The notes under the pieces were generated by a model. It had not been told where the DNA came from and ran no database searches. It was given only the letters and a program-made list of their open reading frames with translations. DNA of 34,495 nt from Deltaproteobacteria bacterium (GTDB taxonomy: Bacteria; Desulfobacterota; Syntrophia; Syntrophales; UBA2192), in the NCBI GenBank assembly GCA_012728915.1, contig JAAYEC010000023.1, positions 1 through 34,495 on the forward strand. The letters run 5' to 3'. The first letter of the stretch is position 1; every line of letters starts with the position of its first letter. The position numbers and the translations under genes were made by a program. This document shows positions 2,938 through 15,619 of the stretch, piece after piece.

Positions 2938-3249
2938 GTGGATGTCAAAAAACCCATCGCCAACCCCCTGATCGTGCTGCGCGAGGAATTCGACGACTGG
3001 GCGATCCTATTCGATCCCGACACGGGCAACGCCTTCGGCCTCAATCCCACGGGGGTCTTCATCTGGAAGCTCCTGGATGGCAGGCACAATCCGGATGACA
3101 TCGTCAACCGGCTCCGCGAGGAAGCCGACAACGTGCCCGAGGACGCCGGAGAGCACGCCCGCCGGTTCATCGCATCCCTGGAGCAGCAGGGGCTCGTAGG
3201 CTACGAGATAGAGCAGGGACCGGGGGCGGGGACCGGGGTTCGGGGCTGA
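2938..3249 (+). CDS. PqqD-like RiPP recognition protein
   Basis: Small protein of 103 aa (from the GTG at 2938) with the PqqD fold. The hallmarks are NPLIVLREEFDDWAILFDPDTG, NPTGVFIWKLLDG and a helical C terminus with DIVNRLREE. PqqD domains bind the leader of a precursor peptide and present it to a radical SAM enzyme. A GTG at 2917 is in frame, but AAAGGA at 2925-2930 favours 2938. It is the first gene of the peptide cassette, four bases before the first radical SAM gene. The last ten residues are a Gly-rich tail with little PqqD similarity. It probably recognises the shared YExPxL[IV]DM leader of the two precursors; that link is inferred from context only. Confidence 0.88.
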   Translation: MDVKKPIANPLIVLREEFDDWAILFDPDTGNAFGLNPTGVFIWKLLDGRHNPDDIVNRLREEADNVPEDAGEHARRFIASLEQQGLVGYEIEQGPGAGTGVRG

Positions 3250-3253
3250 ACGA

Positions 3254-4369
3254 ATGAAACTCATGCGGACCCCGAAAAAAGTCGATATCGACATCACGAA
3301 CCGCTGCAACCTGCGCTGCCGGTACTGTTACCACTTCGAGAGCGCCGGCGATGCGGACGGGGACGGGGACCTGCCGGCGGAGGAGTGGCTGCGGTTCTTC
3401 GGGGAACTGAACCGCTGCGCCGTCACGGAGGTGACGCTGGCCGGGGGGGAGCCCTTCCTGCGCGGCGATCTCCGGGAAATCATCCGGGGCGTCGTGGAGA
3501 ACCGGATGCGATTCGCGATCCTGACCAACGGGACGCTGATCACCGATGAAATGGCGGCCTTTCTCGCCTCGACGAAGCGCTGCAACTACGTGCAGGTCTC
3601 CATCGACGGCTCTGTGCCCGAAAGTCACGACGCCATGCGGGGCAGGGGGAGCTTTGCGAGAGCCCTGCAGGGGCTCCAGGCCCTCCGGCGCAACGGGGTC
3701 CGCGCGGCCGTGCGCGTGACCATTCACCGGAAGAACGTCCACGACCTCGAGGGTATCGCCCGTTTCCTGCTCGAGGATATCGGCCTGGGATCCTTCGGGA
3801 CCAATTCCGCCGGGGCCATGGGCCTGTGCCGGAAGAACGCCGAGATGGTGCAGCTCACGGTGGAGGACCGCATCCTCGCCATGGAGACCCTGCTTCGGCT
3901 GTCGAAACAATACAACGGGCGGATCCAGGCCATGGCCGGGCCGCTGGCCGAGGCCAGGACGTGGCTCGACATGGAGGATGCCAGGCTCGAGGGGCGGCCC
4001 CCGATGCCGGACCGCGGGGCGCTCACCGGCTGCGGCTGCTACCGGTCGAGTCTCAGTGTTCGGGCCGACGGGGTCATCACCCCCTGCACCATGCTCTCCC
4101 AGATCGAGCTGGGGCGGATCAACCGTGACGACCTCGCGACGCTCTGGCGGGAGCACGGGCTGCTCAACGCCCTGAGGGAAAGGGGACACATCCCGCTGAG
4201 CCGCTTTCCGTTTTGCGAGGGCTGCGATTACGTTCCCTATTGCACCGGGAACTGCCCCGGCCTGTCCTATACGCTCGCGGGCGAGGTCAACCACCCGAGC
4301 CCGGATGCGTGTCTGCGAAAATTCCTGGCCGAGGGCGGGCGGCTGCCGGACCGGGCCCTGCTGTGCTGA
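3254..4369 (+). CDS. Radical SAM/SPASM peptide maturase 1
   Basis: Protein of 371 aa that should modify a precursor peptide by radical chemistry. The N-terminal radical SAM domain has the CxxxCxxC cluster motif at C18, C22 and C25 (NRCNLRCRYCYHF) and the SAM-contact GGEPFLR. The C-terminal SPASM domain carries auxiliary-cluster cysteines in the classic order: C-x15-C in the SVRADGVITPC region, then CEGCDYVPYCTGNC (C-x2-C-x5-C-x3-C) and a final DAC. It lies directly after the PqqD-like gene and abuts the next start codon. It resembles the maturases of SynChlorMet-type cassettes (recalled, not checked). Thioether, C-C or epimerisation chemistry cannot be told apart from sequence alone. Confidence 0.92.
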   Translation: MKLMRTPKKVDIDITNRCNLRCRYCYHFESAGDADGDGDLPAEEWLRFFGELNRCAVTEVTLAGGEPFLRGDLREIIRGVVENRMRFAILTNGTLITDEMAAFLASTKRCNYVQVSIDGSVPESHDAMRGRGSFARALQGLQALRRNGVRAAVRVTIHRKNVHDLEGIARFLLEDIGLGSFGTNSAGAMGLCRKNAEMVQLTVEDRILAMETLLRLSKQYNGRIQAMAGPLAEARTWLDMEDARLEGRPPMPDRGALTGCGCYRSSLSVRADGVITPCTMLSQIELGRINRDDLATLWREHGLLNALRERGHIPLSRFPFCEGCDYVPYCTGNCPGLSYTLAGEVNHPSPDACLRKFLAEGGRLPDRALLC

Positions 4370-6073
4370 ATGGAACGGGCGACCATGACAAGAAGAAACC
4401 CCGGTGAAACGATCTTCCTGGCGGCCGTCCTGGCGGCGCTGGCGGCTGTTTATCTCGCCGTGATGCCTCCGGGGCTGTCCTCCAGTGAGGAGGCCGTCCA
4501 GTACGTCCAGATGAAGAACCTGGTCACGAGGGGATCCCTCGAGATCGATTCGCCCGCCGTCGGCCTCGGGTTCGGTGCGGAAGACGTTGCGGGAGCGCGC
4601 GGGCTCTTCGAGTCCCGTGGCGGCAGGCTCCATGCTGTCGCTCCCCCGATCTTTCCCTGGGTCGCGGGCCTTTTCTATCCGCTTGCAGGCGAAGGGGCCG
4701 TCGATTTCACACCGGTGCTGTTCCTGTTCCTTTCGACGCTGCTCCTGGGGCTCGTCCTGGATCGGCTGATGCGGAGGGATTTGACCTACTGGCTCCTGCT
4801 CGCGGTTTTTCTGCTGGGCTCCCCTGTCTTCATGCAGGGCATGCATTTTTCGGGGATGACCCTCGCCCTGTTCCTGATCGTCTCGGCCCTCGGGCTTCTC
4901 GTGAGCCATTTTCAGGACCGTCCTGCAACAGCGAGGCTCTTTGGCGCATCCGTCCTGATGGGGGCTTCCGTGGCCGTCCGACCGGAATGCCTGCTTGTGG
5001 TCCTGTCTTTTTATCTCTGCGCAGCGATGGTTCTTGCGGCCCACGGGCGAATGAAGGATCTGCGGACGATCCTGGCGGGCCTGGCTGCGAGCACGGCCAT
5101 GCTCGTCCTGCACGACCTGGCGCTTCACGGGACGTTTCCCGGTTCCTATCTGCAGCGGATGATTCCCTTCCATGCCCTCTCGCCCACCCGGGCGGCCGTC
5201 CTGGGAGGGGCCCTCGTCTCATCGGGCATCCTGTTGGCCCTCTCCCTGCGGAAGGACACGGTGCCCGGCCTCAAGCCGTTTCTCGCGGTCCTGCCGGCCG
5301 GAATCTTCCTCGCAGCGATTGTGGCGACGGCCGCCCGGATCACGGTGTCTCCTCTCGCGGCGCTGTTCCCGGCGGTGCTCCTCGTCTTCTGCAGTATGCC
5401 GGCGCTGCTCGGTCGGCTCAAGGAGCGGGGCGGAACCCTTGAAGGGATCCTCGCCGCCGCGGTCGTTCTCTGCCTGATCCTCGGCGCCGCGATCCTCCAT
5501 CCCGGCAAGTGGGTTGTCCTGACGGTGTGGGTGCCGATGATTCCGCTGGCCGTCGTGCTGATCGCCGCGAACCGGAAAGCCGTCTTTGCCGCCGAGGGGA
5601 TGTCCCTGGTGCTGACTTTCTTCATCGGCGTCGCCCTCGTGAACGGGATCCAGGAATCGAGGGAGGGGGTGCTGACATACAGGGCCTATAATGCCGCGCG
5701 CGTCGACTTCATCGGCAGACACACCGAGGCCGGGGATGCCGTCCTTTTTACCGATCCCGGCAGCCTGGAGCACGCGGGCCCGCTCTTCTTCGACAGGGTC
5801 TTTCTCCTCGCGAAAGACCCCGGCGATGCGCAGCGCCTCGCCGGGCGCCTTGCCGGGCGGGGCGTCGAGCGGATCTATGCCTGGACGCGCGACCCGCATG
5901 GCCTCGGAGGGGGCAACCCCTACGGGGAGGGGAGACCGCACGTCTTCCCTCCGCCGCCGGGATGGAGGCCCTGCTGCGGCGCATCCTGCGGGCAGGGAAA
6001 CGACTATCTCGTCAGGGTCAAAACCCGGCAGGGCACGGCCGCCGGGATCAAACAGGGAGGATTGCCTTCATGA
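4370..6073 (+). CDS. Polytopic membrane protein, GT-C glycosyltransferase-like
   Basis: Integral membrane protein of about 567 aa with roughly eleven hydrophobic segments and a soluble C-terminal domain from about residue 440. After the first membrane segment the loop reads SSEEAVQYVQMKNLVTRGSL, which matches the acidic catalytic loop of ArnT/PMT-like GT-C transferases (usually DE..Y....A.N...G.W). This suggests transfer of sugar from a lipid carrier, but SEE replaces the common DE/DD, so activity is uncertain. The start codon abuts the stop of the radical SAM gene (TGA at 4367-4369, ATG at 4370); an ATG at 4385 is an alternative. It overlaps the next gene by ATGA at 6070-6073. Its place between two peptide maturases ties it to the cassette. 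Confidence 0.72.
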   Translation: MERATMTRRNPGETIFLAAVLAALAAVYLAVMPPGLSSSEEAVQYVQMKNLVTRGSLEIDSPAVGLGFGAEDVAGARGLFESRGGRLHAVAPPIFPWVAGLFYPLAGEGAVDFTPVLFLFLSTLLLGLVLDRLMRRDLTYWLLLAVFLLGSPVFMQGMHFSGMTLALFLIVSALGLLVSHFQDRPATARLFGASVLMGASVAVRPECLLVVLSFYLCAAMVLAAHGRMKDLRTILAGLAASTAMLVLHDLALHGTFPGSYLQRMIPFHALSPTRAAVLGGALVSSGILLALSLRKDTVPGLKPFLAVLPAGIFLAAIVATAARITVSPLAALFPAVLLVFCSMPALLGRLKERGGTLEGILAAAVVLCLILGAAILHPGKWVVLTVWVPMIPLAVVLIAANRKAVFAAEGMSLVLTFFIGVALVNGIQESREGVLTYRAYNAARVDFIGRHTEAGDAVLFTDPGSLEHAGPLFFDRVFLLAKDPGDAQRLAGRLAGRGVERIYAWTRDPHGLGGGNPYGEGRPHVFPPPPGWRPCCGASCGQGNDYLVRVKTRQGTAAGIKQGGLPS

Positions 6074-7254
6074 CCTCGGGCCCCCGTTGTCACGATGCGG
6101 CGCGGGAAGAGCCCCGGGCCGCAGGGAGCAGCGCGCCTGCGCTGCGGAGCCTTTACTTCTATCTCACGCAGGGCTGCAACCTCCGCTGCCGCCACTGCTG
6201 GCTTGCTCCGCAGTTCCAGACGGCGGCGAAGCAGTACGCCGCCCTGCCGCCGGATCTGTTCCGGCGCATCCTGGGCGAGGCGAAGCCGCTCGGCCTCTCC
6301 GGGGTCAAGCTGACGGGGGGCGAGCCCCTCCTGCACCCGGATATCGGGGCGCTCCTGGAGATCCTCCAGGACGAGCAGCTTCGCTTCAGCATGGAGACCA
6401 ACGGCGTTCTCTGCACGCCCGAACTGGCGCGGGACCTTGTCCGCTCGGGGATGCACCACGTCTCCGTCAGCCTCGACGGGGCCGACGCGCAGACCCACGA
6501 GTGGGTCCGGGGCGTCGAGGGGTGTTTCGAGGCCGCCCTGCGGGGCGTCCGAAACCTCGTTGCCGCGGGCATCCGCCCCCAGATCATCATGAGCCTCATG
6601 CGCAGGAACGCCGGCCAGGTCGAGCCGCTCGTGCGCCTGGCCGAGTCGCTCGGCGCCTCGTCGGTCAAGTTCAACCTCGTCCAGCCCACGGCGCGGGGGG
6701 AAAAGCTGCGCGACAGCGGGGAGGGCCTCGACGTCGGGGAGATGATCGGCCTGGGAAGGCGGATCGAAAACGACCTGGCGCGGACGGCGAAGATCCGGTT
6801 GTTCTACAGCCATCCCGTCGCGTTCAGGCCCCTGGGACGGATATTCGGCGAAAACGGCGACTGCGGCGTATGCGGCATCCGCGGTGTCCTGGGGGTGCTC
6901 GCAGACGGGAGCTATGCCCTCTGCGGGATCGGAGAGCACGTCCCGGAGCTTGTCTTCGGGCAGGCCGGCCGGGACGGCCTGGCGGAGGTCTGGGGCGGAA
7001 ACCCCGTTCTGCGGCAGATACGTGAGGGGATGCCCCGTCGCCTCGAGGGCGTCTGCGGGGAGTGCCTCATGAAGGGCGTCTGCTTCGGCAGCTGCATCGC
7101 CCAGAACTATTACCGCAGCCGCAGCCTCTGGGCGCCTTTCTGGTTCTGTGAGGAGGCCGAGAAGGCGGGGCTTTTCCCCGGGTCGCGGAAAGCGGCGACG
7201 GACGCAAGACAGGAGAGGAACCGCCCGATGACGGACTGTCAATGCGCGGGTTAG
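6070..7254 (+). CDS. Radical SAM/SPASM peptide maturase 2
   Basis: Second radical SAM enzyme of the cassette, 394 aa from the ATG at 6070, which overlaps the preceding stop (ATGA) and follows GGGAGG at 6055-6060. The CxxxCxxC motif is at C36, C40 and C43 (QGCNLRCRHCWLAP), with GGEPLLHPD as the SAM-contact strand. The SPASM part has CGVCGIRG, DGSYALCGIGEH and CGECLMKGVCFGSC (C-x2-C-x5-C-x3-C), then FWFCEEA. It differs clearly from the first maturase, so the two probably act in sequence or on different residues. Its 3' end from about 7031 is duplicated at 8637 as a dead fragment. The last residues DCQCAG include two extra cysteines. Confidence 0.92.
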   Translation: MTSGPRCHDAAREEPRAAGSSAPALRSLYFYLTQGCNLRCRHCWLAPQFQTAAKQYAALPPDLFRRILGEAKPLGLSGVKLTGGEPLLHPDIGALLEILQDEQLRFSMETNGVLCTPELARDLVRSGMHHVSVSLDGADAQTHEWVRGVEGCFEAALRGVRNLVAAGIRPQIIMSLMRRNAGQVEPLVRLAESLGASSVKFNLVQPTARGEKLRDSGEGLDVGEMIGLGRRIENDLARTAKIRLFYSHPVAFRPLGRIFGENGDCGVCGIRGVLGVLADGSYALCGIGEHVPELVFGQAGRDGLAEVWGGNPVLRQIREGMPRRLEGVCGECLMKGVCFGSCIAQNYYRSRSLWAPFWFCEEAEKAGLFPGSRKAATDARQERNRPMTDCQCAG

Positions 7255-7344
7255 GGAACCTGTGGATTAAGCGGAAGGGGGGGCATCTTGATCATGCCGC
7301 AGGAGCCCGCACCGGCCGCATAGCGGTGGAAGAGGTTCGCGACG

Positions 7345-7704
7345 ATGAAAACGTTCAGCTACGAAAAACCGGCCCTCATCGACATGCAGGAAGACAGCGC
7401 GCAGGGCCGTGCAGATTGCGTCAATGGCAGCGGTGTAGATGATTGCGCTTACGGAAGCTGCGTTGCCAGCGCACAGTGCGCTGAGGGACAACAAACCGGA
7501 TATTGCTGGAATGGAAAATTTGCCTGCGGAGGCCTCAGCGGATGCTACACCTGCTGCAGTACCGGCAACCGCGTGACCAAAGGTGTCGGGATGGGCACAA
7601 CCAACTGCAGCTGCAGTGATGGAACCTCGGTAGCGATGAACTGTTACACCGGCTGGGGCGCGGGTTATGAATGCACCTCTGGTAGTCGTCAGGTTCAATG
7701 CTGA
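7345..7704 (+). CDS. Cys-rich precursor peptide 1 (predicted RiPP substrate)
   Basis: Protein of 119 aa with 14 cysteines, 13% of the chain. A short leader-like start, MKTFSYEKPALIDMQEDSAQ, precedes the Cys-rich part (C25 to C119), which is also rich in Gly, Ser, Asn and Thr, with no membrane segment or Sec signal. Cysteines lie at 25, 34, 39, 45, 54, 61, 67, 70, 71, 88, 90, 100, 110 and 119; the last residue is Cys. GAAGAGG at 7328-7334 is a plausible ribosome site. Local base use is more AT-rich than its neighbours. The stop overlaps the next start (CAATGCTGA at 7696-7704). It is paralogous to precursor 2 at 8938. Proposed role: substrate of the radical SAM enzymes. A cysteine-rich structural or metal-binding protein is the alternative. 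Confidence 0.85.
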   Translation: MKTFSYEKPALIDMQEDSAQGRADCVNGSGVDDCAYGSCVASAQCAEGQQTGYCWNGKFACGGLSGCYTCCSTGNRVTKGVGMGTTNCSCSDGTSVAMNCYTGWGAGYECTSGSRQVQC

Positions 7705-8792
7705 TGATACGCAAGGGGTATTACAGCGTAGAGCTTGCCGATGGCTGCGTGTGGGGGCTTGAGGCTTGCGCGGGGACGGAAGATTGGGTCGATAACCTTG
7801 CGGCTGTCCTGGGGCTTACTGTCATGGAGGCCGGCATGCCGGGCTGCCTGTTGTCTTTCCGGAGGCGGCCTGCGAGGTCGCGACCGGGATTGAATGGCCC
7901 GGTTCCTTTCGGTCCGACCCGGTTCGGTGACTCACCGGGCGTCGGCTGGCGCCGTTACCTCCTGCCTGATATTGTCATGTGGGAGAATCCCGCGACACGC
8001 CACACGATCTGTCTCCTGCCGGAGACCGGAACCCTCGAAGAAGAATTGGAGCAGATGAGGCGGGTGTTGCTCCCGCTCTATTGGGAAGCTCTCCGCCGGG
8101 GCGGGTTGCCGCTGCACGCGGCCCTTGCTGAAACAGGCGGCCGGGGCGTGATCCTTGCGGGGAGAAGCGGGGCGGGAAAATCGACCTGCTGCCGGAGACT
8201 GGAGCCGCCGTGGATGGCTCAGAGCGACGATCTCGTCCTCGTCGTCCGCGATGAGGCCGGGAGATTTCTGGCACATCCGCTTCCGACCTGGAGCGCCGTT
8301 CGGAAAGGGATCAGGGAGAGGCCGTGGAACATCAACCGCCCGATCCCCCTGGAGGGAATTTTTTTCCTGGAGCAAGCCGCGGAGGATGGGTTGGAACCGC
8401 TTGGCGGTGCCTCTGCGACCTTGCGAATCCGCCAGTCGGCACTGCAGGTCCTTGGCTCACTCGGGCCCTGCATCGAGTCCGAGAGAGACGTGCGCGCGAA
8501 TGCCACGCTGTTCGAAAATGCCGCAGACCTGGCTGCGTCTCTGCCGTCCTGCATCCTGCGAGTGAGCTTGACCGGCCGGTTCTGGGAGAAGATCGAAGAG
8601 GCCCTTGAAAAAGGGGACAGTCCCCTTTTTCAAGCCTGCCCCGTTGCCTCGAGGGCGTCTGCGGGGAGTGCCTCATGTAGGGCGTCTGCCTCGGCAGCTG
8701 CATCGCCCAGAACTATTACCGCAGGCGCAACCTCTGGGCGCCCTTCTGGTTCTGCGAAGAGGCGTGCGCACAGGGCCTTTTCCCCGGGATGA
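7698..8792 (+). CDS. HprK-like P-loop kinase 1 (ScmC-like), C terminus altered
   Basis: The homologous part (about residues 1-303) has a phosphate-binding loop GRSGAGKST at residues 155-163 and an Asp pair D177-D178 in SDDLVLVV, as in HPr kinase/phosphorylase. Such proteins occur in several RiPP loci, where some phosphorylate the peptide. The N terminus has KGYYSVELADGCVWGLE and the C terminus VSLTGRFWEKIEEAL, both matched in kinase 2. The start ATG lies inside the last codons of precursor 1. The final roughly 60 residues are read through a REP (8608-8630) and, out of frame, through a dead radical SAM fragment, so they are an acquired tail. The substrate is inferred to be precursor 1. Confidence 0.82.
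   Translation: MLMIRKGYYSVELADGCVWGLEACAGTEDWVDNLAAVLGLTVMEAGMPGCLLSFRRRPARSRPGLNGPVPFGPTRFGDSPGVGWRRYLLPDIVMWENPATRHTICLLPETGTLEEELEQMRRVLLPLYWEALRRGGLPLHAALAETGGRGVILAGRSGAGKSTCCRRLEPPWMAQSDDLVLVVRDEAGRFLAHPLPTWSAVRKGIRERPWNINRPIPLEGIFFLEQAAEDGLEPLGGASATLRIRQSALQVLGSLGPCIESERDVRANATLFENAADLAASLPSCILRVSLTGRFWEKIEEALEKGDSPLFQACPVASRASAGSASCRASASAAASPRTITAGATSGRPSGSAKRRAHRAFSPG
8608..8630. repeat. REP palindrome, copy 1 (end of kinase 1)
   Basis: A 23-base palindrome with 11-base arms around one central base: AAAAAGGGGACAGTCCCC followed by T5. It is read as EKGDSPLF in kinase 1. It marks the junction between the kinase coding sequence and the decayed radical SAM fragment. A GGGGA/TCCCC stem with A and T flanks could act weakly as a terminator on either strand. 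Confidence 0.93.
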
Positions 8793-8881
8793 GGCTTGCG
8801 TCGCGACCGGGCTGCGGACGGAGCGTGGAGCAAAGAGGCGCACCCGAGGCGGCCTCGGCCAGCCGGCAGGCCGCCGGATGA
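8636..8881 (+). pseudogene. Decayed 3' end of a second copy of radical SAM/SPASM maturase 2
   Basis: In the frame LPRCLEGVCGECLM, stop, GVCLGSCIAQNYYRRR the sequence matches maturase 2 from residue 321 on (MPRRLEGVCGECLMKGVC). Nucleotides 8637-8761 are about 93% identical to 7031-7155. An AAG lysine codon has become TAG at 8678-8680, and everything upstream of this point is missing. The frame then runs on to TGA at 8879-8881 with unrelated sequence after FPG. It lies just before precursor 2, as the intact gene lies before precursor 1. This is the footprint of a duplicated module that lost its enzyme gene. No start codon or ribosome site is left, so expression is unlikely. Confidence 0.88.
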
Positions 8882-8937
8882 GAACGCCGGAACGCCACGG
8901 TTCCGGCCGGTTTCACAGCGAAGACGGGATGGTGATC

Positions 8938-9309
8938 ATGGAGAAGAAAGCCCGATACGAGCCACCTCTGCTCGTCGACATGAGGGGCGATGACCTGTGC
9001 GGGCAGTTCGCTAAATGTCAGTCGGGAGATAATATTCCCGTCTCGCTGGACAGCTGCATGGAAAATGTAAACTGCCATCAGGGTCTGGCAGCGGAGCAGT
9101 GCATGGTCGGCAGCAACGCCTGCGGGTGTGACGGCTGCTGCTCGACGGGCTTCGCTGCCAAAACAAGCGGCTATACAAATTGGAGCAAATACTCGAACGG
9201 CTGCCAATGCAAGAACGGCGGCGTCGCCTTTCTCCAGTGCACTGTCGGTTATGATACGGGAAGATACTGCGCCCTCGGTCAGAATACTGACATGGAAAAT
9301 CAATGCTGA
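8938..9309 (+). CDS. Cys-rich precursor peptide 2 (predicted RiPP substrate)
   Basis: Protein of 123 aa with 14 cysteines at 21, 27, 40, 46, 55, 62, 64, 67, 68, 89, 91, 101, 111 and 123. The start MEKKARYEPPLLVDMRGDD aligns with that of precursor 1 (YExPxL[IV]DM). The core shares SC-x5-C-x8-C-x6-C, CCSTG, a CxC, C-x9-C-x9-C and a terminal Gln-Cys, while residues between them differ widely. An in-frame ATG at 8929 is also possible. The stop overlaps the next start codon within CAATGCTGA (9301-9309). No Sec signal is visible. It should be modified by the same radical SAM enzymes, since its own linked maturase copy has decayed. Confidence 0.85.
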   Translation: MEKKARYEPPLLVDMRGDDLCGQFAKCQSGDNIPVSLDSCMENVNCHQGLAAEQCMVGSNACGCDGCCSTGFAAKTSGYTNWSKYSNGCQCKNGGVAFLQCTVGYDTGRYCALGQNTDMENQC

Positions 9310-10238
9310 ACAGGACCCCGCTGTACGAGTTGCGACTTGCCGACGATCAGTCCTGGGTGATTGAGCCTACCGGGGACACGGGGGAGTGGGTTGACGAGGT
9401 CGCCCGCCTGCTCAGACTCAAGCCGTCAAGCGAGTCCGGGGTGCGGACCATCCACGTCGAAAGGCTCCCGTATGGGGACGGCGACGGGGAGAGAGAGCAT
9501 GCCCGGCTCCCCCGGTGCGGGCACCCCGACGCCGAAGGGTGCATCTCCCGCGCGAAACCGCTGGAGTTACGGAGGCACCCATTGATCCCGGGGGTCGTGT
9601 GCAGACTTCGGAAGGACCGGGAGTCGCATCAGGTGAAGCAGCAGATGCGATATGCCCTCCGTCCCGTCTATGAAGAGACCATCCGCCGGGGGGGCCTTCC
9701 TCTCCATGCCGCCCTCGTGGAGCGGGACGGACAGGGGGTGCTGCTAGTCGGCCGGAGCGGCGTGGGCAAATCGACGGCCTGCCGGAGGCTGCCGCAGCCG
9801 TGGAATGCGCTCGGCGACGATCTGGCCCTCGCCGTTCGGACAGGGGAGGGCCGCTATGCGGTTCACCCCTTCCCGACATGGAGCGCCGTGCAGGTCGGTT
9901 CGGGGGAGCGAACATGGGATGTCAACCGGAGCGTGTCCCTGTCGGCGATCTTCCTGCTCACCCAGGGCGCGGAAGACGCCGTGGAGGGAGTCGGCACGGG
10001 TGTGGCCGCAGTGGCCCTGAACGATGCAGCGGTGACGATTCTCTATACCGTGCATGCCTGTTCCGGTTCCGGGTCAACGTCCCTGCTGCGCGATGTCTTC
10101 TCGAACGCGGCGGCCATGGCCCGGTGCGTCCCGGTCTACATTCTCCGGCTCAGCCTGACCGGCCGGTTCTGGGAGAAGATCGAAGAGGCCCTTGAAAAAG
10201 GGGACAGTCCCCATTTCCGGAGGGCCCATGGAGCATGA
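9303..10238 (+). CDS. HprK-like P-loop kinase 2 (ScmC-like)
   Basis: Protein of 311 aa, paralogue of the kinase at 7698. The phosphate-binding loop GRSGVGKST is at residues 150-158 and the Asp pair D172-D173 is in GDDLALAV; HPFPTWSAVQ and LRLSLTGRFWEKIEEAL match kinase 1. The start ATG is embedded in the last codons of precursor 2, so precursor and kinase are made as a coupled pair. Its last residues (EKGDSPHFRRAHGA) are encoded by an imperfect REP and the leader of the next gene. The last 57 bases up to and into the REP (10156-10212) are identical to 8569-8625 in kinase 1 although the rest has diverged. Proposed role: phosphorylation or ATP-driven handling of precursor 2; the reaction is not shown by sequence. 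Confidence 0.82.
   Translation: MLNRTPLYELRLADDQSWVIEPTGDTGEWVDEVARLLRLKPSSESGVRTIHVERLPYGDGDGEREHARLPRCGHPDAEGCISRAKPLELRRHPLIPGVVCRLRKDRESHQVKQQMRYALRPVYEETIRRGGLPLHAALVERDGQGVLLVGRSGVGKSTACRRLPQPWNALGDDLALAVRTGEGRYAVHPFPTWSAVQVGSGERTWDVNRSVSLSAIFLLTQGAEDAVEGVGTGVAAVALNDAAVTILYTVHACSGSGSTSLLRDVFSNAAAMARCVPVYILRLSLTGRFWEKIEEALEKGDSPHFRRAHGA
10195..10216. repeat. REP palindrome, copy 2 (end of kinase 2)
   Basis: AAAAAGGGGACAGTCCCC followed by ATTT, so the right T run is broken by one A. It sits in the kinase 2 reading frame (EKGDSPHF) at the same position as copy 1 in kinase 1, and in the same orientation. Confidence 0.9.
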
Positions 10239-10815
10239 GGTGTTCTGTCGCGGCGAGAGCATGCGGCCCCTCTTCCAGCCGGGGGACCGGATTTGTTTCG
10301 AGCCCTGCCGCATCGAAGACCTGCGCCGGGGGGATGTGATCATCTTCAAAGCCCCGGGACAGGAGGAGCGAGTCGTCCACCGCGTCGTCGCAACGGATAC
10401 CGCCCGCATCCGGACGAGGGGGGATGCGAACCTCTCGCGCGATGCCTGGGAAATCCGTCAGGACGACATCGTCGGCCGTGTCGTGTCGCTCGAGCGCGGG
10501 GGCCGGGTGCGTCCCGTGGCAGGCGGATTCCCGGGCCGTCTGCTGAGCGCATACATCCACGCTTTCCGGAAGGCGGATCACTTGGCTTCCCATGTCCTTC
10601 ACCCCTGCTATCGGATCATGGTCCGAAGCGGGCTCGTGCGCACCCTCCTGCCTCCCGCCTTGCGCCCGAGGGTCATCATGTTCGAGCGTGATGGGCAGAG
10701 GGAGATGCAGCTTATCCTGGGCAGACGCATCATCGGTAGACGCCCCGCCGGATCCGGCTCGTGGACCATCCGTCGACCCTTCCGGATCTTCGTGGATGAG
10801 CATTCCCTGCCATAG
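10228..10815 (+). CDS. S26-type (Ser-His) signal-peptidase-like protein
   Basis: Protein of 195 aa with the S24/S26 peptidase fold. Ser11 is in RGESMRPLFQPGD (box B), and RRGDVIIF with VVHRVVA places His51 where bacterial LepB has Lys. TRGDANLSRD, with Asp72, is box E. The Ser-His arrangement is that of the SipW/ER-type branch. Unlike normal signal peptidases it has no N-terminal membrane segment, which suggests a soluble or peripheral protease. The start follows GGAGG at 10219-10223 and overlaps the kinase 2 end by 11 bases. As the ABC exporter downstream lacks a C39 peptidase domain, this enzyme is the natural candidate to remove the leaders. A role as a non-proteolytic factor remains possible. 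Confidence 0.82.
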   Translation: MEHEVFCRGESMRPLFQPGDRICFEPCRIEDLRRGDVIIFKAPGQEERVVHRVVATDTARIRTRGDANLSRDAWEIRQDDIVGRVVSLERGGRVRPVAGGFPGRLLSAYIHAFRKADHLASHVLHPCYRIMVRSGLVRTLLPPALRPRVIMFERDGQREMQLILGRRIIGRRPAGSGSWTIRRPFRIFVDEHSLP

Positions 10816-10893
10816 AAAAAGGGGACAGTCCCCTTTTTGCCGGCATGATTCTGGCAGCGCCTTGACTAAATCAAAGGGGACAGTCCCCTTTTT
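10816..10893. repeat. Pair of REP palindromes, copies 3 and 4
   Basis: One full copy lies at 10816-10838, directly after the peptidase TAG stop; a second, three bases shorter on the left, is at 10873-10893. Both have the central ACAGT orientation and are 34 bases apart. The second ends eight bases before the exporter start codon, leaving no good Shine-Dalgarno sequence. The pair could form hairpins that modulate expression of the downstream exporter half of the operon. Confidence 0.92.
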
Positions 10894-10901
10894 CTAGAGC
10901 A

Positions 10902-12773
10902 ATGAAAACATGGCTTGAGTACTTGAAGAGCGGCCTTGCCCGGAAGGCGCCGGAAGACCGGATTGCCGATGGAAAGACCTATGCGGGAATCGGCGCGAAC
11001 CTACGCCGCCACGGGCCGTTTTTCCGAAGGCACGGGAAGAAGGCGGCCCTGGGCGCGGGATTCATCCTGCTCAACGCCATGATGGCCTTTCCCATGCCGC
11101 TTGTCTCGCGGTTCGTCATCGACGACGTGATCCTGGGCAAAGAGCTTTCGCGCCTTCCCTGGGTGCTGCTGCTCATGACGGCGATCGCCGTCTTCACCCG
11201 GGCCTTGGGCCTTTTCCAGAACTGGTTCTTTCTGCGCTACAGCCAGGAGATGACCCTCGACATCCAGAGGCAGGTGCTGGAGCACTCCTTCAGCCTCCCC
11301 AAGGCCTTCTTCGACAAGAATCAGACCGGGTACCTGATGGCCCGGATCACGGGGGACATCGGCGGCGTGACCTGGTTCCTCTCGGGGAGCCTCGTGGGCA
11401 TCCTGACGAACATCCTGTACTTCACCGGCGGGCTCTGCCTTCTTTTCTGGCTCGAATGGCGGCTGGCGCTTGCCGTCCTCTGTTGCGTGCCGGCCTTCCT
11501 GTTTGCCCTGCGGCGGTTCTCCGACCGGATGCATGCCCTGAACCACGCGGGCAACGAGCAGAACGCCCGGTACATGAGCGACTTCCAGGAAACGCTCAAC
11601 GCCGTCTCCCTCGTCAAGTCCTTCGCCGCCGAGGAGAAGGCCGTCGGCAAAATCCTGGCCGGCCTGCGGCACGTCTTCCGCCTCTCGGCGGAGCGTTCCG
11701 TGGTGGGCTCCGTCACGGGGCTCGCCCTCTCCTCGACGCCGAGCCTTGTTAACTTCGGCGTCTTCGCGGTCGGCGCATACTGGGTCATCACGGGCCACTG
11801 GACCCTGGGGTCGCTCTTCGCCTTCCAGGCCTACCTGGGCCGCGTCTTCGGCCCGGCGCAGTCGCTTGCCTCGACGGGCCTGCAGATGCAGAACATCCGG
11901 GCATCGCTGGAGCGGCTGACGGCCCTGCTCGACGTGGCGCCGGAAAGCGGGCCGGGCGGGGGCGAAAAGGTCGAATCGCTGCGGGGGCAGATCGAATTCA
12001 GAAACGTCACATTCGAGTATGATCCGAAAAACCCGGTGCTCCGGGAGGTTTCCTTCCGTATCCGGCCGGGCGAACGCGTTGCCGTCGTCGGTCCCAGCGG
12101 CGCGGGCAAGACGACGCTGCTGAGCCTCCTCATGCAATTCTACCCCCCGACGGGGGGCGAGATTCTCTACGACGGCATTCCGGCCGGGCGCTACGAGGTC
12201 CGCTCGCTGCGGCAGCGGATCGGCTATGTCCCCCAGGCGCCGATGCTGCTGTCCGGATCGATCCGGGAAAATCTCCGGTACGGCAACCCCGATGCCTCCG
12301 ACGCGGAACTCACGCGGGCCTGCCGCGCGGCGGGGATCCACGAGTTCATCGCGGGCCTTCCCGGCGGCTACGGCAGCGAGGTCGGCGAGAAGGGGGTCAA
12401 TTTTTCGGAAGGCCAGAAGCAGCGGATCGCCATTGCCAGGGCCCTGGTGAAGGATCCCGACATCCTCGTGCTCGACGAGCCAACGGCGGCCCTCGACGGC
12501 CTGACGGAAAAATCGATCTTCGAGGCCCTCCCGTGCCAGATCCGGGGCAAGACGCTCATCCTCGTGGCGCACCGCCTCTCAACGGTCGTCGACTGTGACC
12601 GGATCCTGCTGTTGAACGAAAATCGTCTCGTCGCCGAGGGGACGCACGGCGAGCTGATGAGCATGAGCGGCTACTACCGGGAGCTGGCGGCCTGCCAGCT
12701 GATCCCCGCCCGGGGAGGGCAGGGAGGAAGGGTCATTCCCATTGAACATCTCCGTCGTCATACCCGTCCATAA
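10902..12773 (+). CDS. ABC exporter (fused membrane and ATPase domains)
   Basis: Half-transporter of 623 aa, presumed homodimeric, exporting the mature peptide. Residues 50-330 form a six-helix type IV exporter domain with the usual coupling-helix stretch SLPKAFFDKNQTGYLMARIT. The ATPase domain has Walker A GPSGAGKTT, a Q-loop in YVPQAPMLL, the signature NFSEGQKQR instead of LSGGQ, Walker B ILVLDEPTAALD and the switch His in LVAHRLSTV. There is no N-terminal C39 peptidase, so leader cleavage must be done by another protein, probably the S26-type peptidase just upstream. The start follows the REP pair closely and has only a weak ribosome site. The 3' end overlaps the next gene by 32 bases. Confidence 0.93.
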   Translation: MKTWLEYLKSGLARKAPEDRIADGKTYAGIGANLRRHGPFFRRHGKKAALGAGFILLNAMMAFPMPLVSRFVIDDVILGKELSRLPWVLLLMTAIAVFTRALGLFQNWFFLRYSQEMTLDIQRQVLEHSFSLPKAFFDKNQTGYLMARITGDIGGVTWFLSGSLVGILTNILYFTGGLCLLFWLEWRLALAVLCCVPAFLFALRRFSDRMHALNHAGNEQNARYMSDFQETLNAVSLVKSFAAEEKAVGKILAGLRHVFRLSAERSVVGSVTGLALSSTPSLVNFGVFAVGAYWVITGHWTLGSLFAFQAYLGRVFGPAQSLASTGLQMQNIRASLERLTALLDVAPESGPGGGEKVESLRGQIEFRNVTFEYDPKNPVLREVSFRIRPGERVAVVGPSGAGKTTLLSLLMQFYPPTGGEILYDGIPAGRYEVRSLRQRIGYVPQAPMLLSGSIRENLRYGNPDASDAELTRACRAAGIHEFIAGLPGGYGSEVGEKGVNFSEGQKQRIAIARALVKDPDILVLDEPTAALDGLTEKSIFEALPCQIRGKTLILVAHRLSTVVDCDRILLLNENRLVAEGTHGELMSMSGYYRELAACQLIPARGGQGGRVIPIEHLRRHTRP

Positions 12774-13761
12774 CGGGGGGCCATATCTGGCGCAGGCGAT
12801 CGAGAGTGTCCTGGCCCAGAGTTGGCGAGACCTCGAGCTGCTGATCGTCGATGACGGCTCGACGGATGGAAGCAGCGCCGTCGCGGAGCGCTATGCCCGC
12901 TGCGACCGTCGGATCCGCTTGGTTTCCCAGGCAAACAGGGGCGTCGCCGCGGCGGGCAACCGCGGCCTCGAGGAAGCCCGCGGCCAGTGGGTGGCGCGCC
13001 TCGACGCCGACGACGTCTTCCTGCCTGATAAGCTCGAACGCCAGGTCGCTTTCCTTGCACGATACCCCGACGCGAGGATCGTCGGCACGCTCGGCTACTT
13101 CATCAATCACTCGGGTCGCACCATCGGTCTTGTGAGCACGGACGGACCGTTCACGCCGACGCAGTTCGAGACGATGGCCGCCCGCGGCGAGCCCGTCTTC
13201 TTCGTCCACTCCTCGACCCTGATGCACCGCAGGACCGTCCTTGAAATCGGCGGCTACCGGGAGCGTTTCATCCAGGCCGAGGACGTCGATCTCTGGCTCC
13301 GGATGGCCGGGCAGGGACATCTGCTGCTGAAGATGCCCGAGCCTCTCCTGCTCTACCGGCTCCACGGCGACTCCCTCACCATGAAGCGCAACGCCGAGCA
13401 GAAACGCTGTCACCGCTGGGTCATGGCCTGCGCCGACGCGAGGGGCAAGGGAAGGGAGGAACCATTGCTGGAGGAATTCCTCCGGGCCGAGAGGCGCCGC
13501 CCTTGGCCCGTGCGGTTCCGTGCCTGGCGGAGGGAGGCGGGCGAACGGTATTACCAGACGGCGGCCCTGCGCTACGCCGACGGAAATTGCGCGGCCCTTG
13601 CAGCCTTTCTGTGCCTTGCCGCCTGTCTTAACCCCGCACACGTCCTTCCCCGGCTCTACGATCGCAAGATCGCCCCGATGCTCGAGAGGAGTCTGCCGGA
13701 GACGTTTCCCGCCGCGGTTCCAGGGCGGACGGAGGCCTGCCGTCATGCGCCCGGAAACTGA
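12742..13761 (+). CDS. Family 2 glycosyltransferase
   Basis: GT-A fold glycosyltransferase of 339 aa. The N terminus ISVVIPVHNGGPYLAQAIES and LLIVDDGSTDGS bind the nucleotide sugar; ARLDADDVFLPDKL has the DxD metal site; DVDLWLRMAGQG is the acceptor-side ED motif region. The start is a TTG at 12742 with GGAGGAAGGG upstream, inside the exporter gene. It overlaps the next gene by 17 bases. In this setting it may glycosylate the peptide in the cytoplasm or load a lipid carrier for the GT-C-like membrane protein at 4370. Cell-surface polysaccharide synthesis is the main alternative. Confidence 0.9.
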   Translation: MNISVVIPVHNGGPYLAQAIESVLAQSWRDLELLIVDDGSTDGSSAVAERYARCDRRIRLVSQANRGVAAAGNRGLEEARGQWVARLDADDVFLPDKLERQVAFLARYPDARIVGTLGYFINHSGRTIGLVSTDGPFTPTQFETMAARGEPVFFVHSSTLMHRRTVLEIGGYRERFIQAEDVDLWLRMAGQGHLLLKMPEPLLLYRLHGDSLTMKRNAEQKRCHRWVMACADARGKGREEPLLEEFLRAERRRPWPVRFRAWRREAGERYYQTAALRYADGNCAALAAFLCLAACLNPAHVLPRLYDRKIAPMLERSLPETFPAAVPGRTEACRHAPGN

Positions 13762-14935
13762 GCTTCTGCTGGCCTGCCTCCGGACCGACTTCCGCCAGGG
13801 AGAAACGACGCCGCTGCCCGGAGGTGTCGACTGGAGCCGCTTCGTGATCCTCTGCGAGTGGCACCACGTGGTCCCGCTTGTTTGCAGAACGCTGCCGGGC
13901 GTTCTCAAGGAGGCCGCTCCCCCTGCCGTCGTGAGCCGCCTTCGCGGCCTTCATCATAGCAACACGGCCCGGTCGCTGCTGCTTGCGACTGAGCTGACCC
14001 GTGTCCTGCACGCCCTCGAATCATCCGGCATCTCCGCCTGTCCCTTCAAGGGGCCCGCCCTGTCCGTGATGATCTATGGCGATCCAGCCTGCCGGCAGTC
14101 AAAGGATCTCGACATCCTGGTGCCCGGCCAGGCGCTTCGCAGGGCCGTGAAGGTCCTCGGTTCGCTGGGATACGGCTCAGGACGGAACTGGGACGGGCCA
14201 CAGCTGTCCGCGCACCGGCGCACCGAGTACGAGGCGGTCTTCGCCCGCCGCGACGGGAAGCTGCAGGTCGAGCTTCAGTGGGCCGTCGTCCCTGCTTACT
14301 TCGGGTTCGACCATGAGGAGATGGGCATCTGGTCCCGGTTGGAGAACCGCGCGTGGGGGGCCATGAACTTTCCGGTGCTGCCGCCGGAAGAGACGCTCCT
14401 GATGCTCTGCGTCCACGGCGCCAAGCACCTGTGGTGCAAGCTGGGCTGGGTCTGCGATGTGGCTGGCCTGCTCGAATCCGGGACGCCCCCCGATCTGTTG
14501 CGCTCCCTCGAACTCGCCGGTCGATGCGGCGTGACAAGGCTCCTGCTGCTCGGGCTTCTCCTAGCCGAGCGACTGGCGGGCGCTCGTCTTCCGCAGGAGG
14601 TTTGGGATCGGCTCGAGGCGGATTCCAGGATCGCCGTCCTGGCGCGGCGGGTCCTGGACATTATTGCGAAAACCCCGGTGAACCCAGACGCGGACCCCGC
14701 CCGGTACCTTTTCTACGCGAAGTCAAAGGACAACAGGTGGGATCAGCTCCTCTTTGCGGGCAGGCTCCTGTCGACACTGGCCGCTGGCGAGTGGAACCCG
14801 TCGGCCCTGCCCGACATCCTCGCCCCGTTCTATTTCCTGTTCAGGCCTCTGCACATGGCAGGCCGTCACGGCGAACCGATCCTGCGGGCCCTGGCCCGAA
14901 AAAAGGGGACAGTCCCCTTTTTGAAAGCGAGGTAA
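13745..14935 (+). CDS. NTP_transf_5-like putative nucleotidyltransferase
   Basis: Protein of 396 aa from the ATG at 13745. The stretch CPFKGPALSVMIYGDPACRQ followed by SKDLDILV matches the KG.al...lYgdp..R...DiDlLv pattern of the uncharacterised nucleotidyltransferase family (PF14907, from memory), where the paired Asp residues should bind metal. Proteins of this family recur in lasso peptide and other RiPP loci, but the reaction is unknown. The middle has HGAKHLWCKLGWVCDVAGLL, also typical of the family. The last residues KKGTVPFLKAR are encoded by a REP that runs through the stop region, so the natural C terminus has been replaced. Its position as last gene of the overlapping run supports a place in the peptide pathway. 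Confidence 0.8.
   Translation: MRPETELLLACLRTDFRQGETTPLPGGVDWSRFVILCEWHHVVPLVCRTLPGVLKEAAPPAVVSRLRGLHHSNTARSLLLATELTRVLHALESSGISACPFKGPALSVMIYGDPACRQSKDLDILVPGQALRRAVKVLGSLGYGSGRNWDGPQLSAHRRTEYEAVFARRDGKLQVELQWAVVPAYFGFDHEEMGIWSRLENRAWGAMNFPVLPPEETLLMLCVHGAKHLWCKLGWVCDVAGLLESGTPPDLLRSLELAGRCGVTRLLLLGLLLAERLAGARLPQEVWDRLEADSRIAVLARRVLDIIAKTPVNPDADPARYLFYAKSKDNRWDQLLFAGRLLSTLAAGEWNPSALPDILAPFYFLFRPLHMAGRHGEPILRALARKKGTVPFLKAR
14900..14922. repeat. REP palindrome, copy 5 (upstream of the transposase)
   Basis: Full 23-base copy in the ACAGT orientation, preceded by one extra A. It encodes the tail KKGTVPFL of the nucleotidyltransferase and lies 20 bases before the transposase start, forming the left end of the transposase-REP unit. 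Confidence 0.93.
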
Positions 14936-14942
14936 ATCAATC

Positions 14943-15599
14943 ATGCCCAGAATGTCACGGCAACTGGCTGACGGCCTGATTTATCATGTGATCAACCGCG
15001 GGAATGACAAACAGGTCGTCTTTCGAAAAAAGTGGGATTACGAGGTTTTCCTGGAATTGATGGGGATGGCAAGGGAGCGGTATCCCCTGAAGGTATTCGC
15101 CTACTGCCTCATGCCGAATCATTTCCATTTTGTTGCATCGCAGGACGGTGACATCTCGCTGAGTTCATGGATTCAGTGGCTGATGACAACGCACGTTCGT
15201 CGTTACAACAGACACTACGAGCGAAGCGGCCATCTCTGGCAGGGGCGATTCAAGAGCTTCCCTGTGCAGGATGACGAACATCTCCTTGTTCTCATGAGAT
15301 ATGTCGAAGGCAATCCTGTGCGCTCTGGACTGGTTTCCACCGCGCGAGACTGGAAATGGTCTTCTCACGGGGAAAACACGGGGGCAGTGCCGAGGAATTT
15401 GACGGATGTCGCTCCACGGGTTCTGCCTGAAAATTGGACTCGATACGTCGACGTGCCTTGGACGACGAGCGGCCTGGATTGTGTCAGGGAGTGCGTGAAC
15501 CGCCAGGCTCCGTTCGGGTCGGATGTCTGGAGGGCGAAGATCAGCAGGGAGTTCAACCTGGAATCGACCATTCGGCCCAGGGGTCGACCTAGAAAATAA
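14943..15599 (+). CDS. REP-associated tyrosine transposase (RAYT, IS200-like)
   Basis: Y1 HUH-family single-strand nuclease of 218 aa. The HUH motif is H60-F-H62 in YCLMPNHFHFV, and the candidate catalytic Tyr120 is in LMRYVEGNPVRSGLV. YHVINRGNDKQVVF at the start and RPRGRPRK at the end are typical of RAYTs. REPs of opposite orientation flank it (ACAGT upstream, ACTGT downstream), as expected for a transposase that acts on these palindromes. It is more AT-rich than its surroundings, which fits transfer. The frame is intact, so it may be active. It is the likely agent that seeded the REPs in the peptide cassette. Confidence 0.93.
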   Translation: MPRMSRQLADGLIYHVINRGNDKQVVFRKKWDYEVFLELMGMARERYPLKVFAYCLMPNHFHFVASQDGDISLSSWIQWLMTTHVRRYNRHYERSGHLWQGRFKSFPVQDDEHLLVLMRYVEGNPVRSGLVSTARDWKWSSHGENTGAVPRNLTDVAPRVLPENWTRYVDVPWTTSGLDCVRECVNRQAPFGSDVWRAKISREFNLESTIRPRGRPRK

Positions 15600-15617
15600 A
15601 GGGGACTGTCCCCTTTT
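15598..15617. repeat. REP palindrome, copy 6 (inverted, downstream of the transposase)
   Basis: AAAGGGGACTGTCCCCTTTT, with the central base complementary to the other copies, so it is in the opposite orientation. Its first bases overlap the transposase stop codon TAA. It pairs with the upstream copy as the right end of the unit. Confidence 0.9.
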
Positions 15618-15619
15618 CG

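Follow-up and report, generated by a model that had tools for sequence, protein, structure and literature searches.

Linear polyphosphorylated peptides (LPPs), a family of ribosomally synthesised and post-translationally modified peptides (RiPPs) described in 2026 from the lpp cluster of P. alginolyticus, depend on a core set comprising a RiPP recognition element (RRE), an HprK-like kinase, a soluble archaeal-type signal peptidase, an MsbA-like exporter and a nucleotidyltransferase (NTP transferase) (PMC13381572). LppB, like the RREs of lasso peptides, binds [Y/W]xxP leaders, its N33 holding the leader Pro; in the precursor LppA, Tyr occupies position -16 and Pro position -13, and the leader, presented by the RRE, is cut after T-1 by the soluble signal-peptidase-like enzyme, while LppK polyphosphorylates the peptide (PMC13381572). 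A His-Lys-Asp-Asp set is reported to be catalytic in the kinases of lasso peptides, and in the lasso peptide pseudomycoidin PsmK phosphorylates, after which PsmN adds a hexose (PMC9266682). Here, we describe a SynChlorMet (SCM) cassette at positions 2938 to 14935 of contig JAAYEC010000023.1 from a bacterium of the Syntrophales; “the window” refers to the whole stretch analysed, i.e., this entire 34,495-base contig, part of a 2.79-Mb draft genome. SCM is a computer-defined gene set known already, the product of which has never been seen. We read the cassette as probably an intact RiPP pathway for two modified Cys-repeat peptides, similar to that of the LPPs with two radical S-adenosylmethionine (SAM) enzymes added.

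In all, the cassette holds 12 intact open reading frames on the forward strand, several junctions of which overlap by 4 to 32 bases. A preliminary description of the window had reported twelve such genes running in one direction and had likened them to Scm cassettes. All twelve are present and open, their family matches are well above chance, and the likeness proved to be identity: since ScmD, ScmE, ScmF and both ScmC proteins exceed the cut-offs of their NCBI equivalog models in the profile search (four families; scores below), the cassette, judged by these four enzymes, is SCM. The genes are as follows.

2938–3249, +: scmD, PqqD-like RRE (discrete, presumed leader-binding); TIGR04248, 126.7 bits (cut-off 100)
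3254–4369, +: scmE, radical SAM/SPASM peptide maturase 1; TIGR04250, 590.5 bits (cut-off 400), CxxxCxxC motif intact
4370–6073, +: GT-C-like protein with multiple transmembrane segments, an addition limited to the genus; weak PMT_2 and NF047440 matches
6070–7254, +: scmF, radical SAM/SPASM peptide maturase 2; TIGR04251, 581.2 bits (cut-off 400)
7345–7704, +: precursor peptide 1, leader YEKPALIDMQEDSAQG, predicted cut after G, CxxG-repeat core; profile A3, 66.5 bits (own genome)
7698–8620, +: scmC1, HprK/PEPCK-fold kinase; TIGR04249, 226.5 bits (cut-off 125), open reading frame extending to 8792
8938–9309, +: precursor peptide 2, leader YEPPLLVDMRGDDLCG, predicted cut after G, CxxG repeats and a CxCxxCC cluster; profile A3, 69.8 bits
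9303–10238, +: scmC2, second HprK/PEPCK-fold kinase; TIGR04249, 234.6 bits (cut-off 125)
10228–10815, +: S26 soluble archaeal-type signal-peptidase-like protein, putative leader peptidase; TIGR02228, 61.3 bits (cut-off 51.85)
10902–12773, +: MsbA-like ABC exporter without a C39 peptidase domain; PF00664 and PF00005 only
12742–13761, +: family 2 glycosyltransferase (GT2), an addition limited to the genus; PF00535, 127.9 bits
13745–14935, +: NTP_transf_5 nucleotidyltransferase-like protein, LppN-like, and PsmN-like by annotation; PF14907, 188.5 bits (cut-off 31.2)

ScmF probably starts at 6070, in an ATGA overlap with the stop codon of the GT-C-like gene, and the corrected starts of precursor 2 (about 8938), of the S26 gene (10228) and of the NTP transferase gene (13745) are likewise probable. 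The exporter scores 399 bits with TIGR02204, under the cut-off of 780 of that model.

The window thus contains every component of the LPP core (RRE, HprK-like kinase, signal-peptidase-I-like enzyme, MsbA-like exporter and NTP transferase); indeed, the cassette minus its radical SAM genes is that core. The likeness extends to the YxxPx[L/V] leader, to the distance of 16 residues between the leader Tyr and the predicted cut, and to the Ser, His and Asp of the peptidase. From the LPP leader consensus YxxPxVLxHQxIxFETxxS, the SCM leaders keep YxxPx[LI] and that distance; HQxIxFET and the conserved Ser3 are absent. Unlike LPP clusters, SCM cassettes encode two radical SAM/SPASM enzymes and Cys-repeat cores, carry mostly His where the LppB-type RRE has D70, and occur in Syntrophales and other phyla rather than in Bacillota. 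The cassette would, therefore, work like an LPP cluster, yet is not one. It resembles the paeninodin and pseudomycoidin clusters in its lasso-type RRE, [Y/W]xxP leader, His-Lys-Asp-Asp kinase and a partner annotated as nucleotidyltransferase; membership in the lasso peptides was rejected, as the macrolactam synthetase (C) and transglutaminase-type B2 peptidase families match no open reading frame of the cassette. The HPr-rel-A system was rejected as well (HprK_rel_A TIGR04352, 22.9 to 28.3 bits against a cut-off of 200; PqqD_rel_X TIGR04353, 24 against 35). A text search of 5.4 million open-access papers returned no mention of the SCM cassette name or, among the matches listed, of its TIGR accessions, and literature searches on SCM, ScmE/F and S26 plus radical SAM RiPPs gave nothing on point.

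The relatives of the window are metagenome assemblies of Syntrophales/Syntrophaceae, which makes its host very probably a syntrophic anaerobe of that order. ScmE loci were gathered from these relatives and by a species-wide scan extending to Desulfobacterales, BMS3Abin06, Omnitrophota, Aminicenantes, Chlorobiaceae, WOR-1 and UBP9; profiles made from the proteins of the window served to annotate them. At almost all loci, a short Cys-rich open reading frame lies between scmF and scmC and carries the leader YExPx[LI][VI]D[LM]. This precursor is local at 22 of the 24 evaluable SCM loci (i.e., those uninterrupted by a gap or the end of a contig); for the remaining two, the genome has it on a different contig. 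Amongst 60 relatives, it occurs in 18/18 genomes with ScmE and in two of the 42 without (Fisher, 2e-13). The profile was built in part from these relatives’ genomes, and the fair test is therefore confined to five ScmE-positive genomes that played no part in building it: all five have the precursor, against the same 2/42 (p 1.4e-5). One of the two exceptions (L093) is a 4.6-kb contig on which the precursor adjoins scmC, S26 and NTP_transf_5 genes at the contig end; the other (L040) has a variant ScmE in its genome. At the phylum level, the opened ScmE loci share the precursor type, except L105, where only scmD and scmE were detected, while the opened contigs of precursor matches without ScmE (L104 and L114) are short and bear other scm genes. 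The preliminary description had held that its reading would fall if precursor homologues occurred regularly without the radical SAM genes, or if the latter clustered with unrelated substrates; neither is the case, the same precursor type accompanying these enzymes from Syntrophales to Chlorobiaceae, Aminicenantes and UBP9.

The idea of an SCM precursor is not new, since NCBI has an ScmA model (TIGR04252, cut-off 35). Neither window precursor matched it, even at E 10, and its cut-off was passed in none of the 60 relatives; the model finds matches in 8 of 30 relatives (best E 2.1e-7), those scored singly all lying under the cut-off. The window precursors are thus divergent homologues outside the TIGR04252 model. 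A Pfam search of the precursors gave no match. The two are 32% identical to each other. Across the family, the cores have up to 17 Cys, are about 20 to 124 residues long (about 100 in the window) and vary greatly in sequence.

The gene order scmD-scmE-scmF-precursor-scmC-S26-NTP_transf_5-ABC recurs in SCM loci of several phyla, by which the S26 and NTP_transf_5 genes are normal SCM members. The preliminary description had taken these two, along with the GT-C-like gene, as going beyond the set: the former are regular SCM components and belong to the LPP core too, while the GT-C-like gene is lineage-specific, as is GT2, the GT-C and the strong GT2 matches amongst SCM loci being found in the window’s genus only. 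Compared with the SCM models, the window therefore adds the regular partners S26, NTP_transf_5 and ABC exporter, the local glycosyltransferase genes, and a second copy of the precursor–kinase module; its gene order is that of its relatives. In an Aminicenantes locus (L052:14110-16041), the S26 and NTP_transf_5 proteins are fused in a single protein of 644 residues. The same stretch carries a second scmD-scmF-precursor set with no scmE beside it (L052:6058-7782), possibly a minimal version with one radical SAM enzyme. On two contigs, L092 (G045:C7) and L091 (G015:C34), SCM-type precursors occur without radical SAM genes, scmD-E-F being located elsewhere in the genome, which suggests action in trans.

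ScmD is very probably the lasso/LPP-type RRE that binds the YExPxLVDM motif of the leader, as judged by homology and motifs. Amongst the solved structures closest to it are those of the lasso RREs TbiB1 and TfuB1 and of LppB (9x8z); the equivalent of LppB N33 (in LNP) is kept in nearly all primary ScmD proteins and that of F74 is conserved. Of the 33 precursors of the first set, 28 have a small residue (Gly, Ala or Ser) at position 16 counted from the leader Tyr. In the held-out set, i.e., 22 precursors found after the first, the same holds for 18 (background 35%, p 1e-5), often within A-x-G or A-x-A, and position 9 of the leader is hydrophobic in all 22. The S26 protein has no N-terminal membrane anchor and its profile is nearest SEC11; Ser12, His52 and Asp73 are invariant amongst 12 homologues, at about the spacing of S29, H68 and D93 in LppS. 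Taken together, this triad in an anchorless protein, the small residue at position 16 and the exporter devoid of a C39 peptidase single out S26 as the likely leader peptidase. Guided by ScmD, the soluble enzyme is thus expected, with good likelihood, to cut at A-x-G, 16 residues on from the leader Tyr, and the core would then be secreted by the MsbA-like exporter, itself without a peptidase. In the window, the cut would fall behind the G of SAQG in precursor 1 and of DLCG in precursor 2.

SPASM radical SAM enzymes and Cys precursors are both present, and we infer that the former act on the latter: ScmE and ScmF quite probably modify the core at its repeats, the unit of which is roughly C-x-x-G-[SGT]-x-A. 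Gly follows at Cys+3 for 208 of the 294 core Cys in the first set (71%; 54 expected from shuffles) and for 119 of 138 in the held-out set (86%; 28 expected). The same spacing is seen in streptosactin, in which unnested alpha-thioethers join Cys25 to Ser28 and Cys31 to Gly34 (PMC8172795). The system of this unnested sactipeptide (GggA/GggB) shares with SCM the C-x-x-S/G spacing of donor and acceptor and a SPASM radical SAM enzyme; unlike it, the SCM cassette has two such enzymes, many repeats, a kinase and an S26 peptidase, and its bond type is a prediction. The nearest solved relatives of ScmE are SkfB, PqqE and 5wgg. The C-x-x-G enrichment, the streptosactin spacing and these relatives favour serial Cys–Gly alpha-thioethers made by ScmE/ScmF, which we propose with moderate confidence; that every Cys sulphur is joined to the alpha carbon of its Gly to give a string of small, unnested, streptosactin-like rings is a tentative picture, short of an even chance.

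Comparably placed, within the same pathway, is the possibility that ScmE and ScmF form other bonds (beta or gamma thioethers as in ranthipeptides, C–C bonds, or epimerised residues), the Cys staying free or as disulfides, to which we would also give somewhat under half of our credence. The NirJ, mycofactocin, PapB, StsB and WgkB models all match ScmE/ScmF with comparable scores below their cut-offs, 5wgg is the ranthipeptide synthase CteB, two distinct radical SAM enzymes suggest two reactions, and Ser/Thr at +4 or Ala at +6 could yet serve as acceptors. Set against this, C-x-x-G is by far the strongest feature of the cores, and if the acceptor is the Gly at +3, which lacks a side chain to take a beta or gamma bond, the alpha bond is favoured.

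Both window cores would next be phosphorylated. The AlphaFold model of ScmC2 (predicted local distance difference test, pLDDT, 86) matches PEPCK over 257 residues (VIA Z 15.3, root-mean-square deviation 4.3) and HprK/P (Foldseek E 3.4e-5); His135, Lys156 and Asp172 are invariant in the ScmC alignment and Asp173 nearly so. Each precursor gene shares 7 nt with its kinase gene, which suggests translational coupling, and precursor and scmC numbers rise together in several loci (two and two in the window, three and three in L030). We rather favour the view that each ScmC is paired with its own precursor and (poly)phosphorylates Ser/Thr of the peptide; by sequence, the Ser/Thr following the repeat Gly are candidate targets. 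More tentatively, the NTP_transf_5 protein, here perhaps with GT2 or the GT-C-like protein, might add a sugar or nucleotide to the phosphate. A PDB search with the NTP_transf_5 protein gave nothing useful. In a close relative, L023 (12 kb), six Cys-repeat precursors stand with at least three intact scmC genes, an extreme multiplication of precursors and kinases.

The glycosyltransferase genes raise the question of whether the product is a peptide displayed on the cell surface and heavily decorated (phosphate-linked sugar, GT-C/GT2), i.e., an envelope component instead of a small diffusible product. LPP and paeninodin clusters do sit within capsular polysaccharide loci (PMC13381572), the window adds GT-C-like and GT2 genes, and its cores are long; as these genes are limited to one genus and no polysaccharide locus was recognised in the rest of the window, we regard this as unlikely. 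The preliminary description had counted two glycosyltransferase-like proteins: the GT2 assignment stands, while the GT-C label of the 4370–6073 product is weakly supported (PMT_2 19.4 bits and NF047440 82.8 bits, both under cut-off), and the structure model of this protein is poor (pLDDT 51). Its Cys-rich C-terminal tail (CCGxSCG) is conserved in all four aligned homologues.

A still less likely alternative is that the peptide stays unphosphorylated, ScmC acting as a regulator that binds nucleotides or as an HPr-type kinase with some other protein as its target. It would fit the want of an invariant Ser in the precursors and the very low identity of ScmC to any solved HprK, but the catalytic residues are retained, extra precursors tend to bring their own scmC, the two genes overlap in the window, and LppK and the lasso kinases modify the peptide itself. 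That the peptides carry a metal or redox cofactor or act as its scaffold (in a PQQ- or mycofactocin-like role, or as a Cys-rich metallophore), and are not a secreted signal or antimicrobial, is improbable, for all the PqqD/PqqE-type machinery, Cys-dense cores and mostly anaerobic hosts, given a dedicated exporter, leader peptidase, kinase and NTP transferase as for secreted LPP and lasso peptides, and cores that, unlike cofactor precursors, vary strongly in length and sequence.

Several points weigh against the LPP-like pathway with added radical SAM enzymes that we prefer. The D70 position of LppB, mostly His in ScmD, departs from the LPP pattern. Variant loci (L031–L036 and L040) have the same precursors, with S26 absent within the fetched DNA. 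No Ser is invariant across the SCM precursors, that corresponding to Ser3 of the LPPs included. ScmE and ScmF score similarly with many radical SAM families, so that the C-x-x-G spacing is the sole pointer to alpha-thioethers. The support is computational throughout: it covers gene content, family membership, linkage, the precursor family with its leader, the position-16 and C-x-x-G statistics, and the fold and catalytic residues of the kinase, from which binding, bond chemistry, phosphorylation, cleavage, glycosylation, export and biological role are inferred.

Seven variant loci (L031, L032, L034, L035, L040, L110 and L111) have extra PqqD-like genes and divergent ScmC/ScmE. The predicted site of their precursors is A-x-A (AHAQ, AYAQ) and the fetched DNA contains no S26 gene; a different peptidase, therefore, probably acts there.

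Comparison with about 40 relatives provides the SCM set with precursors of wide occurrence, for which the leader, the predicted cut and the spacing of the repeats can be stated, and connects it to the LPPs, a biochemically characterised family, which renders its product testable. Were the proposed pathway true, the LPP chassis would not be restricted to Bacillota and could be combined with radical SAM chemistry. Going further, and speculatively, SCM products might form a new RiPP class with tandem C-x-x-G thioether rings and a (poly)phosphate or phosphate-linked sugar, made outside Bacillota by an LPP-type pathway decorated with radical SAM enzymes, the precursor–kinase modules of which are exchanged between strains.

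The history of the locus is marked by a remnant of the 3′ end of scmF between scmC1 and precursor 2, with a repetitive extragenic palindrome (REP) at its border. The REP-like palindrome (AAAGGGGACAGTCCCCTTT) occurs in six copies within 7 kb (8597–15619), out of 18 exact-core copies in the genome. The features concerned are the following.

8597–8631: REP-like palindrome AAAAAGGGGACAGTCCCCTTTTT, 1 of 6
8637–8803, +: dead fragment of the scmF 3′ end with an internal TAG stop codon; 94% identity to 7031–7157 in the alignment
10184–10218: REP-like palindrome, 2 of 6
10805–10894: pair of REP-like palindromes, 3 and 4 of 6, between the S26 and ABC exporter genes
14889–14923: REP-like palindrome, 5 of 6, at the cassette end
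14943–15599, +: REP-associated tyrosine transposase, REP-flanked; NF047646, 80.6 bits (cut-off 80), and PF01797

A recent, simple tandem duplication of the whole module was rejected, for ScmC1 and ScmC2 are only 42% identical and the precursors 32%, against 94% for the scmF fragment. By the same figures, the scar is best accounted for by recombination bringing in a second precursor–kinase module that had diverged beforehand. The transposase stands outside the pathway and is the likely origin of the palindromes. The 3′ end of the scmC1 open reading frame crosses a REP palindrome into the scmF remnant, so that the final ~57 codons encode no part of ScmC, and several scm genes terminate within or beside REP palindromes (GDSP or KGTVPF tails).

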